DNA of 43,914 nucleotides, from assembly GCA_024635585.1 (NCBI GenBank), contig JAGXIP010000075.1:1-43914 (forward strand). The letters run 5' to 3'. A program made the position numbers and the translations under genes. This document shows positions 20,910-25,659 of the stretch, in pieces. The notes beneath the pieces are model-generated. The model searched no databases, was not told the origin of the DNA, and was given only the letters and a program-made list of their open reading frames with translations. Each line of letters opens with the position of its first letter. Position 1 is the stretch's first letter. Source of the DNA: Saccharicrinis sp. Lineage in GTDB: Bacteria > Bacteroidota > Bacteroidia > Bacteroidales > Marinilabiliaceae.

Positions 20910-21110
20910 TTACTTTTTTGCTTCGCTACACTTTTTTTCACAAGCTGCTTTTTTCTCTTTAGTGCATTCTGCTTTTTTCTCTTTAGTGCATTCCTTTTTT
21001 TCAGCACATTCTTTTTTTACTGGTTCTTGAACAGTATCCATAGCCATAACAGGTGATGCGATGGCAACCATAAACATAAATAGAAACGAAATTGCAATTG
21101 ACTTCTTCAT
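20910..21110 (-). CDS. small secreted Lys/Cys-rich repeat peptide
   Basis: 66 residues from the ATG at 21110. The signal peptide MKKSIAISFLFMFMVAIASP ends in VMA, leaving a mature peptide of about 43 residues. The mature part is almost only Lys, Glu, Ala and Cys, with five Cys spaced 5, 7, 7 and 3 residues apart (KKEC, KKEC, KAEC, KAAC, EKKC). It is predicted to be helical. Two exact 24-nt tandem repeats encode the centre, unit ECTKEKKA. It has its own terminator, so it is a free-standing gene. I recognise no family. Metal binding or cross-linking through Cys is a guess from composition. A longer frame opens at 21176, but the signal peptide fixes the start. Confidence 0.8.
   Translation of the reverse strand: MKKSIAISFLFMFMVAIASPVMAMDTVQEPVKKECAEKKECTKEKKAECTKEKKAACEKKCSEAKK
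20946..20993 (-). repeat. two exact 24-nt tandem repeats in the peptide gene
   Basis: 20946-20969 and 20970-20993 are identical (plus strand TGCTTTTTTCTC followed by TTTAGTGCATTC). Each encodes ECTKEKKA, so copy-number change would keep the frame and add or remove one Cys per unit. Confidence 0.95.
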
Positions 21111-21214
21111 AATGACTGATTTTGTATTGTTAATAATTAATAATGACATAACAAATGTGATATGTTTCAGGTGCAATATATGACATTTACAGTTCTTTAG
21201 GTGTTAACGACATG

Positions 21215-21979
21215 TTAATTGCGCATAATAATTTTTGCTTTTTCGGGTAGGGCACGGTAAATGGCTTTGGCCTCGGTATCGTTGAGCCATAAATATAGCA
21301 CCGGATTATATTTTTTTGAAAAAGGATTGTCAAGTGCGTGTTTCAGTCGATAAGAGAATATATCGCTGCTTTTTTTGATGTTCATAGTTGAATCAGGTTC
21401 AAGTATTACGCCTTTTACTACAATCAACATACCGTTACTCGATTTAATTATCCAATTTAGTGCTTCCACTTTGGTCGAATCGGTTTTTATCGCTTCTTTT
21501 TCAGTGCCAATAGGTGGTGCAACCACTTTTATCAAGGCTCTTTTTGGAATGTTTGCAGCACACGTATCAATGCTTGCGGGTGTGCCAAATACCTTTAAAT
21601 ACAACTGTTTATTAATATTACTGATATATTGTGTTGGTTTTTGAGCCAATATTTTTGCCTGAAATAACACGGTTCCCTTTAAGTGCACCTGCACCAAACT
21701 ATCGTGTAGGTTAATGCCTAAACTAAAAGAGTCGGATTTAGCTAACTGTAACTGTTGCTCAAACCAAAGTTGTTGCTTTTGTAATGCTTTAATTTCGGAA
21801 TTTGGCCAATTATCGCTTATTGTCTTGATACTATCTATTTGAGCATGTAATTCACGTGAATAATTGCCGCTTTTTACAGTTGCTACAGTCAGATTTATTA
21901 TAAACAACAACAATAAAATAATCCAAAATAAAACAATTGGAGCAATCCATTTTTTATTTCTCAGCACAAAATCTTTCAT
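21215..21979 (-). CDS. uncharacterised membrane-anchored periplasmic protein
   Basis: 254 residues. A short basic N-terminus (KDFVLRNKKW) precedes one membrane segment (about 11-34), followed by a probable coiled coil (about 40-80) and a mixed alpha/beta domain. No catalytic motif or known family is recognised. It is the third gene of a minus-strand group: it starts 10 bases after the stop of the YkuD protein at 21990-22667, so it should be co-transcribed with two L,D-transpeptidases. That context suggests an envelope or peptidoglycan role, which is inference only. Confidence 0.75.
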   Translation of the reverse strand: MKDFVLRNKKWIAPIVLFWIILLLLFIINLTVATVKSGNYSRELHAQIDSIKTISDNWPNSEIKALQKQQLWFEQQLQLAKSDSFSLGINLHDSLVQVHLKGTVLFQAKILAQKPTQYISNINKQLYLKVFGTPASIDTCAANIPKRALIKVVAPPIGTEKEAIKTDSTKVEALNWIIKSSNGMLIVVKGVILEPDSTMNIKKSSDIFSYRLKHALDNPFSKKYNPVLYLWLNDTEAKAIYRALPEKAKIIMRN

Positions 21980-21989
21980 GGTATTTTTA

Positions 21990-22667
21990 TTAATAGATGA
22001 AAACTTTGGATCCTACTTGAAGATTTTTGTAAACCACTTCTAAGTCTTCGTCGGCTAAACGGATGCAGCCATGGGTGACGGGCATTCCTAGCAAACGTTG
22101 ATATAGGGTGCCATGGATAAGGTAACCATCGCCAAGGCTCAATGCATAATCGCCTAAAACACCACGTTCAAAACGCGAGTTGTGGTTGGCTGGTGGCACA
22201 GGTAGCCCTTCTTCAATAAAAGCCCAATCGGGTTTGCGCCAGATGGGATTGGTTATTTTACCTTTTACCGACAGCGCACCCCGAGGTGTTTCGAAGGTGA
22301 AGCTCTTAGTACTGTCCACTTCTAATTGTATAAGGCTTCCGGTGGAGCACAACCCTTTACGGATGATTTGGTTGTTTTTAAATAACCTATACGTATTTTC
22401 AGTAGTGTTAATGATGAGGAAAGTACCGCCGGGCGTAAGACGATCCAGTTTTTGCTCAAGACGGTCAACTTGTTTTTGAAGTTTCGCTACGTCTTCAGGT
22501 TTATCCGATGTTTCAGGTAGTTTTGTATTATCTATTACCAACGACCTAAATCGGGTATCTTGTATTTCGGGAATTAAAAAAGCGTTTGCCGCAACAAAAA
22601 GCAGCAAGCCAATTAAAATTACTAATGCGGTAAGCCCTGTTTTCAATAAAATTATTTTCCGATTCAT
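21990..22667 (-). CDS. L,D-transpeptidase (YkuD fold), membrane anchored
   Basis: 225 residues. One N-terminal membrane segment (about 8-30) is followed by a coiled coil (about 58-78), then the YkuD catalytic domain (80-225). The active-site pattern is HGTLYQ (His185) followed by VTHGCIRL with Cys201. Such enzymes form 3-3 cross-links or attach proteins to the diaminopimelate residue of peptidoglycan stems. The start overlaps the stop of the upstream YafK-like gene by 4 bases (ATGA), so translation is probably coupled. A lipoprotein with a C-terminal Lys is encoded upstream of this pair and is a possible substrate. Confidence 0.9.
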   Translation of the reverse strand: MNRKIILLKTGLTALVILIGLLLFVAANAFLIPEIQDTRFRSLVIDNTKLPETSDKPEDVAKLQKQVDRLEQKLDRLTPGGTFLIINTTENTYRLFKNNQIIRKGLCSTGSLIQLEVDSTKSFTFETPRGALSVKGKITNPIWRKPDWAFIEEGLPVPPANHNSRFERGVLGDYALSLGDGYLIHGTLYQRLLGMPVTHGCIRLADEDLEVVYKNLQVGSKVFIY

Positions 22668-23782
22668 TTTATTGCATTTAAATATTCGTCAAGTGATTTA
22701 TCACTACCTACAATAAAAACTAAAGTACCAACGGGGCACATATCATAAATAATATCCATTTCTTTATCCCTTAATGCCACGCAACCTTCTGTCCAGTGCA
22801 AACCTTTGCCACCGTGTCCATGAATTTCTATTAGGCCACCAATTTGCGCACCTTTTGAAACGCTACCGTTTTTTTTCATACGGTCAAAGCGAGCAACATC
22901 CTCATCGTTAGGGTAGTTTAGCAACAAGGCCTTATAGTATTTGGTGCTGGAATCCTTCTTCTTTTTGGTTATTTTATATATTCCCTGTGGGGTTGCACGG
23001 TCGCCTTTCATTATTTTGTCGCCCATCCAGTTGGGGCCAAACTCAGCATCAAAAGTTTTTATCACTTTTCCACCTTTTAGTACAGCGCACGTGGCCTCTA
23101 TTTTATTTACCAAAACAATAGTTTGCTTTTTTGATAAGTTAAAAGCTTGGTTAATATTTTTTTCCCAATCCGGATAATCCTCGTAAAAATTGTTCAGCTT
23201 ACTTTGCGTAGCTTTCTCTGCTAGTTCAAGTTTAGATCCTGCTTGATCAATAAGCTTCAATGCTTTTTGATAGTTTTGGTTGCTGTATTCATGCAAGGCC
23301 TCCAAGTAAAGTATTTTGCCTTTGTTGTATCTATCAAAATTTTCTCGACCAAGAGGTAAATTCTTATAATGATTCTCGAATAAATTTATCTGACTGGTTG
23401 TTTGTTGTAGTTTAAGCTCCAGCTCTTTTGTATATTTATTTTTTTGCGAATCGGCCTCACTGTGAGCATTAATGCTGATATTCAGCGATGCTTTTGCCAA
23501 GTCTTTAACATGGGTGAAGTCGCGGAAGGCAATGAACCTGGTGTTTTGAACTGTCCATTCGGACATCGCCGTATTAAATAATTTCTCTGCCTCGTGTAAC
23601 CTCTCGCTGGCATATTTGCTGGCATGGGCGCTTTTAGCCTTGGCTATAGATTCACGGGCTTTATCTATCTCTGCTACTGGTGGTTTGGTGGTATAGTATT
23701 TAAAAACCGCATACCCAATAAATAAACAACTCGTAATAGCTAATACCACTAATAGGTAGGAAATAATCCTTTTTACACTCAT
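22664..23782 (-). CDS. YafK-like L,D-transpeptidase with helical DUF4398-like N-terminal region
   Basis: 372 residues. One membrane segment (about 6-28) is followed by an Ala-rich helical region (about 38-190) whose repeating A...A..A pattern resembles DUF4398. The catalytic domain (about 205-360) has FGPNWMGDK, KGDRATPQGIYKI, EIHGHGG (His321, His323) and HWTEGCVALRD with Cys334. It belongs to the YafK/ErfK group. It overlaps the next transpeptidase gene by 4 bases. A terminator separates it from the lipoprotein gene upstream, so it may need its own promoter or arise by readthrough. Confidence 0.9.
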   Translation of the reverse strand: MSVKRIISYLLVVLAITSCLFIGYAVFKYYTTKPPVAEIDKARESIAKAKSAHASKYASERLHEAEKLFNTAMSEWTVQNTRFIAFRDFTHVKDLAKASLNISINAHSEADSQKNKYTKELELKLQQTTSQINLFENHYKNLPLGRENFDRYNKGKILYLEALHEYSNQNYQKALKLIDQAGSKLELAEKATQSKLNNFYEDYPDWEKNINQAFNLSKKQTIVLVNKIEATCAVLKGGKVIKTFDAEFGPNWMGDKIMKGDRATPQGIYKITKKKKDSSTKYYKALLLNYPNDEDVARFDRMKKNGSVSKGAQIGGLIEIHGHGGKGLHWTEGCVALRDKEMDIIYDMCPVGTLVFIVGSDKSLDEYLNAIK

Positions 23783-23793
23783 TGCAACTAATT

Positions 23794-23819
23794 AAAAAGC
23801 CGGAGCGATGGGCCCCGGC
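23794..23819 (-). terminator. rho-independent terminator of the helical lipoprotein gene
   Basis: On the minus strand, GCCGGGGC pairs with GCTCCGGC (one G-T wobble) around a 5-base loop and is followed by TTTTT. It lies between the lipoprotein stop and the YafK-like gene, so it reduces transcription into the transpeptidases. Confidence 0.88.
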
Positions 23820-23851
23820 AAATATTTCATATTTAAATCTCGTGATATTGA

Positions 23852-24442
23852 TTATTTGCGCTTATATTTTTCAAGCACAGTTTTCAATTCAGTGTTGATT
23901 TCGGCTGCTTTTTGTTGCACAGCGTTTGCTTTTGTTTGGGCAGCCATTAAATCGTTGCTAGCCAATAAAGCTGGAATTTCGTCCAAAGATGCATTGATGG
24001 CTGCTAAGTCGCTTTTGATAGCTTCAATAGCTTCTTTACCTTCTTTACCTTTTGGAGCCTTTTCAACCATTTGTTGGTTTTCTTCCATCATGGTAGCTAC
24101 TGCAGCCTGAACCATAGCAACTTCTTCTTTTACTTCTTCTTTCTTAACTTCGGTTTTGCCTACAAGCTCAGAACCTTGGGCTGTTATGGCAGCTAGTTTT
24201 TCTTTAGCGCTGTCATAGTTTCCGAACATTTTTGAATTTTGTGCTTCAATATCAGCTGTAACAGCATTCATTGAATCCTGGAGAGCCATGTATTCGGCTT
24301 CCAAATAAACATCAGCTTGCGCAGCTTTTGCTTGTTCCAATGCAGCATTAGCAGCATCTACTTCTGCTTGGGGTGCTTTAGCACAACTGCTAAATGCAAG
24401 TGTTGCAGCAATTACTGCGATAAAAACAAAATACTTTTTCAT
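23852..24442 (-). CDS. Ala-rich helical lipoprotein with C-terminal Lys, candidate peptidoglycan tether
   Basis: 196 residues. A lipoprotein signal ends in FSSC (Cys20). The mature part is almost wholly alpha-helical and rich in Ala, Glu, Lys and Gln, without Cys or Trp. Its N-terminal part (about 24-65) resembles DUF4398, as does the N-terminal region of the neighbouring YafK-like enzyme. The C-terminus is VLEKYKRK, very like the TKYRK end of E. coli Braun lipoprotein Lpp, whose final Lys is joined to peptidoglycan by L,D-transpeptidases. Two such enzymes are the next genes on the same strand. Sequence supports an abundant helical lipoprotein; covalent attachment is a hypothesis. Confidence 0.82.
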   Translation of the reverse strand: MKKYFVFIAVIAATLAFSSCAKAPQAEVDAANAALEQAKAAQADVYLEAEYMALQDSMNAVTADIEAQNSKMFGNYDSAKEKLAAITAQGSELVGKTEVKKEEVKEEVAMVQAAVATMMEENQQMVEKAPKGKEGKEAIEAIKSDLAAINASLDEIPALLASNDLMAAQTKANAVQQKAAEINTELKTVLEKYKRK

Positions 24443-24587
24443 AATTTTTACTTAATTTGTATTTATTCTCTAAATGGTTTTGATAAGAGTTTTTTCTCAT
24501 TCATGTATTTTGACGGATAATATTGGCGAAGTAACACGAGCAGCGTAAAAAAAATGTATAATTTTTAGAAATCATATCCTACAATCA

Positions 24588-25157: not shown

Positions 25158-25260
25158 TAAAAATACGTTACTTATTGTATTGTGCTCGTCAAAAGCAGGA
25201 GGCAGAGTAGATTGATAGCTTTGATGAGAATATTAATGAATCGAAACAAGTAAGTCTGTG

Positions 25261-25659
25261 ATGAATAAATTACTAAAAAAAATATTTCTGACACCCTCCA
25301 AGCATATTCCTGAAAAGGTGAAAGAAGCGTTGTATGCACAATTTTCCGAGGCACTCAATGTTGAATGGGATTTTAAAAAAGAGGTTTATGAAGCCGTTTT
25401 TTATGTGAATGAAATCGAATTTATTGCCATGATTTCGGAGGATATAGGAATTATAGAGTACAAACAAAATTTGAGACTCGATGAACTTCCGTCGCATATT
25501 ATTAAGGAATGCGTTAGTTCGGGAGAAATAATGAATGCCATAGCCATTACCAAAGAGGCTGCTATTTTTTTTGAAGTTATTGTACGCAATAAGAAAATGG
25601 AACGTAGCGCTCTACTGCTTAACGAATCGGGTAAGCTGTTGGAAAATAAGCTTCTGTAA
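25261..25659 (+). CDS. PepSY-like small protein
   Basis: 132 residues from the ATG at 25261; a GTG one codon earlier is also in frame. No signal peptide is seen. The central pattern, ALYAQFSEALNVEWDFKKEVYEAVFYVNEIEFIAMISEDIGII followed by LP..I, fits PepSY-like (beta-lactamase-inhibitor-like) units, which normally fold as small alpha/beta sandwiches. It lies about 100 bases after the ECF sigma factor and about 90 before a two-component pair, so it may share their regulation, possibly as a cytoplasmic partner. Function unknown. Confidence 0.65.
   Translation: MNKLLKKIFLTPSKHIPEKVKEALYAQFSEALNVEWDFKKEVYEAVFYVNEIEFIAMISEDIGIIEYKQNLRLDELPSHIIKECVSSGEIMNAIAITKEAAIFFEVIVRNKKMERSALLLNESGKLLENKLL

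Follow-up and report, generated by a model that had tools for sequence, protein, structure and literature searches.

We analyzed the 43,914-nucleotide contig JAGXIP010000075.1 of Saccharicrinis sp. (assembly GCA_024635585.1; hereafter the window) and focused on a minus-strand operon that encodes, in this order, a lipoprotein (LP), two proteins with a YkuD domain (LdtA and LdtB) and a fourth protein (ORF4). We propose, with a probability of about 0.5, that this operon is a stress-induced peptidoglycan-editing module in which a transpeptidase (LdtB) and a hydrolase (LdtA) act with LP as their outer-membrane partner. Support comes from the co-inheritance of the genes, the nested occurrence of LP, LdtA and LdtB (42/41/39 genomes), the paralogy between LP and the stalk of LdtA, the active-site types of the two enzymes and the promoter. 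A first-pass annotation had instead viewed this interval as a Braun-type tether between outer membrane and cell wall; it placed three genes as we find them and missed the fourth, ORF4 (21979-21215). The operon comprises the following features, given in positions of the window:

23852..24442, minus strand: LP, gene of a 196-residue lipoprotein, first of the operon (open reading frame, lipobox)
24383..24385, minus strand: predicted lipidation site Cys20 of LP (position +3 is Lys in 96/104 homologues)
24038..24058, minus strand: LP loop APKGKEG at residues 129-135, where conservation is highest (homologue alignment, hhalign)
23855..23869, minus strand: basic tail KYKRK of LP, terminal Lys not conserved
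22664..23782, minus strand: LdtA, 372 residues, with an N-terminal hydrophobic helix (read as transmembrane), a DUF4398-type stalk and a YkuD domain
23135..23677, minus strand: stalk of LdtA, about residues 36-216, aligned as a paralogue of LP (hhalign, joint tree)
22712..23122, minus strand: YkuD domain of LdtA, with Cys334 at 22781-22783 and Ala two residues further on (Cys+2)
21990..22667, minus strand: LdtB, 225 residues, with an N-terminal hydrophobic stretch (read as transmembrane) and a YkuD domain
22065-22067, minus strand: codon of LdtB Cys201, in the motif HGT...VTHGC[IV]R
21215..21979, minus strand: ORF4, 254 residues, last gene of the operon, without a Pfam family

The gene set is inherited as a unit. 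Among distinct loci with enough flanking DNA to be testable, LdtA follows LP in 97/98, LdtB is kept with LP in 70/71 and ORF4 in 65/66, which is as tight as for the enzymes; the expected linkage to YkuD enzymes is therefore maintained. The sole exception is the same for all three genes, namely locus L052, where a gene block splits LP from LdtA. Among 393 genomes of the order, LP was present in 42 and absent from 351; 41 had full-length LdtA and 39 had LdtB. Each genome with one of the enzymes also carries LP and the sets are nested; no LdtA or LdtB orthologue without LP was found in the 393 genomes. LdtB was missing from three LP genomes (G675, G750 and G796) and LdtA from one of them (G750), gaps that may be explained by the ends of draft contigs. 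Matches in three further genomes (E about 1e-31 to 1e-33 in G652, G671 and G773) were restricted to the catalytic domain, as was an additional match in G571. LP was found in 9/61 genomes of near kin and, at E<=0.001, in 16/395 genomes of the phylum, 9 of them with strong matches (own genome included in the 9 of each survey). The module is missing from 7/8 other genomes of the genus; the sister genome G002 (locus L011) has the operon with an LP 93% identical. Given this patchy distribution, we regard the operon as accessory, and a tether common to the whole phylum is accordingly unlikely.

These counts have the following scope. In the surveys of the phylum and the order, scoring covered the 5 to 8 best first-look candidates of each genome, and a genome may therefore have been missed. 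Loci were assigned to the best 30 of the 42 LP genomes of the order; the remaining 12 are not part of any sequence count. A pattern-based scan confirmed 197 loci, of which the best 80 were used; as these were chosen with the pattern AP[KR]GKEG, conservation of the loop is quoted from 43 sequences found without it. Distinct LPs number 103 in the synteny count and 104 in the C-terminus count, since duplicate removal differs, and some near-copies stay in both. For the alignments, 93 LPs were reduced to 70 at an 85% identity cut and 69 were used after dropping L028 (start untrimmed), and 90 LdtAs were reduced to 70 at 75% and 69 were used after dropping L055 (fragment). The alignments of LdtB (20 rows), ORF4 (22) and a 133-residue protein encoded nearby (22) were made from rows chosen for spread.

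Two loci of unusual structure were seen. The block in L052 (L052:3787-8897) holds four same-strand genes, the first three with an apparent secretion-type C-terminal tail, and this is the only interrupted operon seen. In a metagenome-assembled genome of Cyclobacteriaceae, the LdtA gene could be read only as a short fragment (L055:9365-9805), perhaps through assembly error or decay.

The active site of LdtA looks like that of a hydrolase and not of a transpeptidase. LdtA matches the Pfam family YkuD (PF03734) at 2e-15 with 58 bits, over the cut-off, and His321 and Cys334 are present in 69/69 aligned LdtAs (in L025, FHG replaces IHG). At Cys+2, however, the residue is Ala in 66 and Gly in 3 of the 69 and never Arg, so that the Arg of transpeptidases is missing. 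Lys256 is found in 69/69 at the same place as K83 of DpaA and K107 of Csd6, so that LdtA agrees with both parts of the DpaA/YafK rule, a Lys matching K83 and Ala or Asn two residues after the Cys, Gly being the exception in 3 of the 69. Among solved structures, Csd6 (Z 16.2), Pgp2 (15.5 and 15.3), Bd1075 (14.1) and DpaA (13.3) come nearest in fold, the same four proteins rank first by sequence profile, in the order DpaA, Bd1075, Pgp2, Csd6, and the NCBIfam DpaA model is matched by 68/69 LdtAs. According to excerpts of PMC8263019, most DpaA-like proteins carry Ala or Asn at Cys+2; the structure is described in excerpts of PMC10653827, and the Arg rule at Cys+2 is given in excerpts of both papers. 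A reading with two transpeptidases in the operon was rejected on the Ala or Gly at Cys+2 in 69/69 LdtAs. Of the two intact L,D-transpeptidase sites previously assigned, both cysteines, Cys334 and Cys201, are in place and LdtB has the full motif, whereas LdtA has Ala at Cys+2.

LdtB, whose gene overlaps that of LdtA by ATGA at 22664-22667 as already noted in the first-pass annotation, carries by its sequence the canonical L,D-transpeptidase motif. It matches PF03734 at 5e-20 with 73 bits (cut-off 23.4), the motif HGT...VTHGC[IV]R is found in 20/20 aligned LdtBs, Arg203 at Cys+2 is present in all 20, and L,D-transpeptidase models are likewise matched by 20/20. Apart from LdtA and LdtB, a single YkuD gene was found in the genome; it lies away from LP on contig C103 (L147:1215-1817, plus strand) and encodes a 200-residue protein with Arg at Cys+2 (TEGCIRL).

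The open reading frame and lipobox (AFSSC) confirmed the reported 196-residue lipoprotein with Cys20 and the end KYKRK (EKYKRK). Nine positions are invariant in the 69 aligned LPs: Cys20, P24, A129, P130, G132, K133, G135, E185 and L186. The P[KR]GK loop and its K133 are present in 43/43 LPs found without the loop pattern, as APKGKEG (25), APRGKEG (13), APRGKDG (3), APKGKGG (1) and LPRGKEG (1, in L138). Acidic residues occur at positions +2, +3, +4 and +5 after the Cys in 6, 1, 0 and 0 of 104 LPs, and no acidic surface-export signal was seen behind the Cys; excerpts of PMC5080379 give such signals as K-(D/E)2 or SDDDD. Because there is no acidic run after the Cys, LP is predicted to sit in the inner leaflet of the outer membrane. 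The AlphaFold model is all helical (mean predicted local distance difference test score, pLDDT, 91; predicted template modelling score, pTM, 0.77), which agrees with the almost entirely helical protein expected. In place of the long mature helix about three times the length of Lpp that had been suggested, it has six helices (25-40, 43-46, 48-69, 77-128, 133-161 and 165-195), with K133 at the start of one of them. A single long coiled coil was rejected on this model.

Comparisons of LP with known families gave only generic helical resemblance. A fold search returned nothing significant (best E 0.78, for the N-domain of Borrelia BB0323 and EzrA), and in structure comparison VIA scored Z 11.6 or less, within the common range of the tool for helical bundles. 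Pfam matches such as ABC_tran_CTD and EzrA were set aside as generic helical ones, those of the window LP being all under their own cut-offs. The Lpp family (PF04728) was not among the 15 families matching the window LP at E<=1, nor among the matches listed (25 of 34 families) for the 69 LP homologues at E<=0.01; the suggestion of an origin independent of Lpp agrees with the lack of such a match.

LP and the stalk of LdtA share more than the DUF4398-like N-terminal helix attributed to them: the sharing itself was right, and it extends over LP 18-190 and LdtA 29-196 (hhalign probability 98.9, E 1.6e-17). In this alignment the loop P-x-G-K lies opposite P-L-G-R of the window LdtA, with K133 opposite Arg146, and a 7-residue gap in the stalk falls opposite LP 135-141. 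The AlphaFold model of LdtA (pLDDT 96, pTM 0.83) has an N-terminal helix (2-31) followed by the stalk helices 36-51, 54-57, 59-81, 90-139, 146-167 and 171-216, and the order of helices is the same in LP and the stalk. A joint tree with 75 rows separates LP from the stalk by one branch with an SH-like approximate likelihood-ratio support (SH-aLRT) of 100, and a single old split would therefore fit; this was a quick tree that drew warnings about long branches and composition, chiefly on rows of LdtA. On these alignments and models, LP is a paralogue of the LdtA stalk over its full length. The first hairpin of the stalk (LdtA 33-137) also resembles the DUF4398 structure 4fm3 (Z 12.6, root-mean-square deviation 2.8, 95 of 96 residues). 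PF14346 is matched at E<=0.01 by 15/69 LPs (best 1.4e-7) and 18/69 LdtAs (best 6e-6); of the window proteins, LdtA stays under the cut-off (27.9) with 22.4 bits and LP has no match.

Control of the operon was considered from the following features upstream of LP:

24508..24535, minus strand: promoter of the operon, extracytoplasmic function (ECF) type, GTTACTT-N13-CGTC-NNAA
24588..25157, plus strand: divergent ECF sigma factor, probable regulator (Sigma70_r2 4e-12)
25167..25194, plus strand: second copy of the promoter, 5' of the 133-residue protein gene
25258..25659, plus strand: gene of the 133-residue protein, a possible regulator, beside LP in 45/69 testable loci

The sigma factor has Sigma70 regions 2 and 4 and no region 3, and is the divergent neighbour of LP in 58/97 testable loci. 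The promoter was found 5' of LP in 49/54 loci with the sigma gene and in 1/39 without it. Spacing between its blocks was the same in 50/50 matches, though the pattern allowed others, and in 7/50 the first block had C in place of its second-last T. Five other sigma loci (L007, L009, L044, L048 and L055) have GTGACTT instead of GTTACTT. A looser pattern was matched in 0/1860 mononucleotide shuffles. The divergent sigma gene and the sharply conserved promoter suggest stress control, and the sigma factor probably regulates the LP operon. Among the listed loci of at least 9 kb, copies elsewhere than before LP and the 133-residue protein gene were seen in two, L017 and L022. The exact promoter occurs three times in the own genome, before LP, before the 133-residue protein gene and before a PF13354 gene, while a reversed control pattern gave none; all three sites recur in the sister G002. 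The PF13354 gene encodes a beta-lactamase-type serine hydrolase (L146:1768-2751, minus strand, contig C213; L156 in the sister) and would be a third member of the regulon in the genus, in keeping with a response to wall stress. Next to LP the exact pattern carries information, but across whole genomes outside the genus it is weak. As for the 133-residue protein, PepSY_like is matched by 5/22 homologues and no signal peptide was seen on inspection; a regulatory role is possible.

In the module as we picture it, stress would lead the ECF sigma factor to switch on the LP operon through its promoter. LdtB would make L,D-bonds on the wall and LdtA would cut L,D-bonds, either at tetrapeptide ends or between wall and protein as DpaA does. 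LP would dock LdtA from the outer membrane and serve chiefly as a partner that positions the enzymes. A number of observations weigh against this proposal. The common fold of LP and the LdtA stalk does not show that they bind each other, the outer-membrane location of LP is one that we infer, and the Z of 12.6 to 4fm3 falls in the range that the tool gives as possible for any helical bundle (under about 13). Concerning the hydrolase assignment, the window LdtA scores 27.8 bits with the NCBIfam DpaA model, far under the cut-off of 365, and the Z of 13.3 to DpaA is level with those of ordinary transpeptidases (13.9-13.0). Furthermore, LdtA has Glu319 (Glu in 64, Gln in 3 and Ala in 2 of 69) where Csd6 has Trp158 and DpaA has Met133 (position taken from aligning IWIHG / IEIHG with Pgp2); this pocket is unlike both known hydrolase types, and the bond that LdtA would cut may therefore be of either kind named above or another. 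Concerning stress control, 39/97 testable loci have no divergent sigma gene and control is therefore not universal, the promoter was found 5' of the sigma gene in 0/55 loci and 5' of the 133-residue protein gene in only 14/54 (L007 and L075 being the same stretch), the exact promoter is absent from five of ten other LP genomes (sister included), and the reversed control was matched once in four of the same ten.

The other readings differ in whether and how LP is joined to the wall. That both enzymes attach LP through a C-terminal Lys, as in the original Braun-type proposal, is very unlikely. The window LP does end in KYKRK and 49/104 distinct LPs end in Lys, but the terminal Lys, which should be invariant under that proposal, is replaced in 55/104: by Arg in 34, Ser in 8, Tyr in 4, Ile in 3, Phe in 2, and Asn, Trp, His and Ala in 1 each. 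The LP of the 93%-identical sister is among them (KYKR). Among the 43 pattern-free sequences the last residue is Lys in 22, Arg in 10, Ser in 6, Ile in 2 and Ala, Phe or Asn in 1 each. Positions -2 and -3 carry Lys about as often as -1 does (0.47, 0.44, 0.44, 0.38 and 0.40 from -1 to -5 in the 104; 0.51, 0.56, 0.35, 0.33 and 0.30 in the 43). In a quick 104-row tree computed with the tail left out, the end changes between Lys and not-Lys 26 times, compared to at least 27 and on average 34.7 in 300 label shuffles. These three results, to which the lack of the transpeptidase Arg in LdtA adds, rule out a terminal-Lys tether as the leading interpretation; excerpts of PMC12274547 report for Dickeya that one Lys at the very end is necessary and sufficient for attachment. 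Judged by these counts, the tail is generally basic and its last residue is nothing special. Six LPs (L046, L050, L067, L085, L087 and L088) have longer Ala/Pro/Lys-rich tails, with roughly 6 to 27 extra residues, and all of them end in KK. In two named strains, Mangrovibacterium marinum DSM 28823 (L041) and Maribellus luteus XSD2 (L037), the LP terminates in KKR and RKK, respectively.

A reversible covalent tether, in which LdtB would join a non-terminal Lys of LP (K133 or one in the tail) to diaminopimelate and the DpaA-like LdtA would remove it, is less probable than the editing module but deserves the most attention among the alternatives. LP co-occurs, in nested fashion, with a transpeptidase and a DpaA-type enzyme, the 43/43 conservation of K133 would suit an acceptor, and Lys is found within the last five residues of 93/104 LPs (K192 is Lys in 64/69 aligned LPs). 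LimB is attached via an internal Lys according to excerpts of PMC12274547 and PMC12729407, and excerpts of PMC8263019 describe E. coli Lpp being cut off by DpaA. Yet three LPs (L095, L097 and L098, 3/8 strong phylum matches outside the own genome) lack Lys throughout their last 16 residues, K133, being at a helix start in the model, could equally be structural, and the window LdtA has Arg opposite K133. More doubtful still is the complete version of this idea: a self-contained and reversible tether of outer membrane to wall that would have arisen in Bacteroidota without descent from Lpp. Its bond would be at the internal Lys of P[KR]GK, the substrate would derive from the stalk of the enzyme that erases the bond, or have been its source, and all three components would be co-expressed, in many species by a dedicated envelope-stress sigma factor. 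Improbable, though somewhat less so than the terminal-Lys tether, is a non-covalent spacer or sensor whose basic tail would bind the wall or inner membrane and report to the sigma factor, the enzymes sharing the regulon only. It would suit a tail that is basic without being Lys-specific (at least 3 Lys/Arg among the last 10 residues in 92/104) and a sigma gene that adjoins in 58/97 loci; it explains neither why LP is paralogous to the LdtA stalk nor why the genes occur jointly at loci without a sigma gene.

Comparison with known systems places the operon as follows. Like Lpp of E. coli, LP is a helical lipoprotein, predicted to be in the outer membrane, with a basic C-terminus and YkuD enzymes, a DpaA-type enzyme for reversal among them. 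In contrast to Lpp, it has no PF04728 match, has about 177 mature residues in several helices and does not conserve the terminal Lys; here, lipoprotein, transpeptidase and DpaA-type enzyme are in one operon and the lipoprotein is paralogous to the enzyme stalk. With LimB of Coxiella, LP shares that no terminal Lys is required and that an internal Lys could be the acceptor (excerpts of PMC12274547 and PMC12729407); such attachment is described for LimB and hypothetical for LP. In its catalytic domain, LdtA shares with DpaA/YafK, Csd6, Pgp2 and Bd1075 the fold, the Cys and His, a Lys matching K83 of DpaA, and Ala at Cys+2. It differs from these YkuD hydrolases by its DUF4398-type stalk with a hydrophobic N-terminal helix, by the Glu at the Csd6 Trp158 / DpaA Met133 place and by scoring far below the NCBIfam DpaA cut-off. 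DUF4398 (PF14346; PA2901, PDB 4fm3) resembles the first hairpin of the LdtA stalk (95 residues), but the domain here is about twice as long and comes in two forms, lipid-anchored alone or fused to YkuD.

Word searches of open-licence PubMed Central (PMC) papers found no covalent tether described for Bacteroidota in the listed titles and abstract openings or in excerpts of two papers, no paper on sacculus-attached lipoproteins of Bacteroidetes, none combining YkuD, Bacteroidetes, lipoprotein and sigma factor, and, by title, none on DUF4398 about this gene set. According to excerpts of PMC8263019, DpaA-like proteins occur in numerous bacteria lacking Lpp, Bacteroidetes included, other substrates are left to test, and the role of these enzymes in bacteria without Lpp is left open by their discoverers. 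The operon names a concrete partner for a DpaA-like enzyme of Bacteroidota, a lipoprotein that is inherited one-to-one with it and is a paralogue of its stalk. With this operon, the coupling of outer membrane and wall in some Bacteroidota becomes testable in cultured strains, and its promoter provides a handle for finding the rest of the regulon.

The last gene of the operon, ORF4, for which no Pfam family was found, encodes a protein with one hydrophobic N-terminal stretch, a conserved DS...DS core and an RA[LIV]P-type end (22 aligned rows). Just 3' of the operon (20910-21176, minus strand) lies a gene for a small secreted-looking protein with repeated Cys/Lys/Glu-rich units, which has phmmer matches in only two records among those compared.

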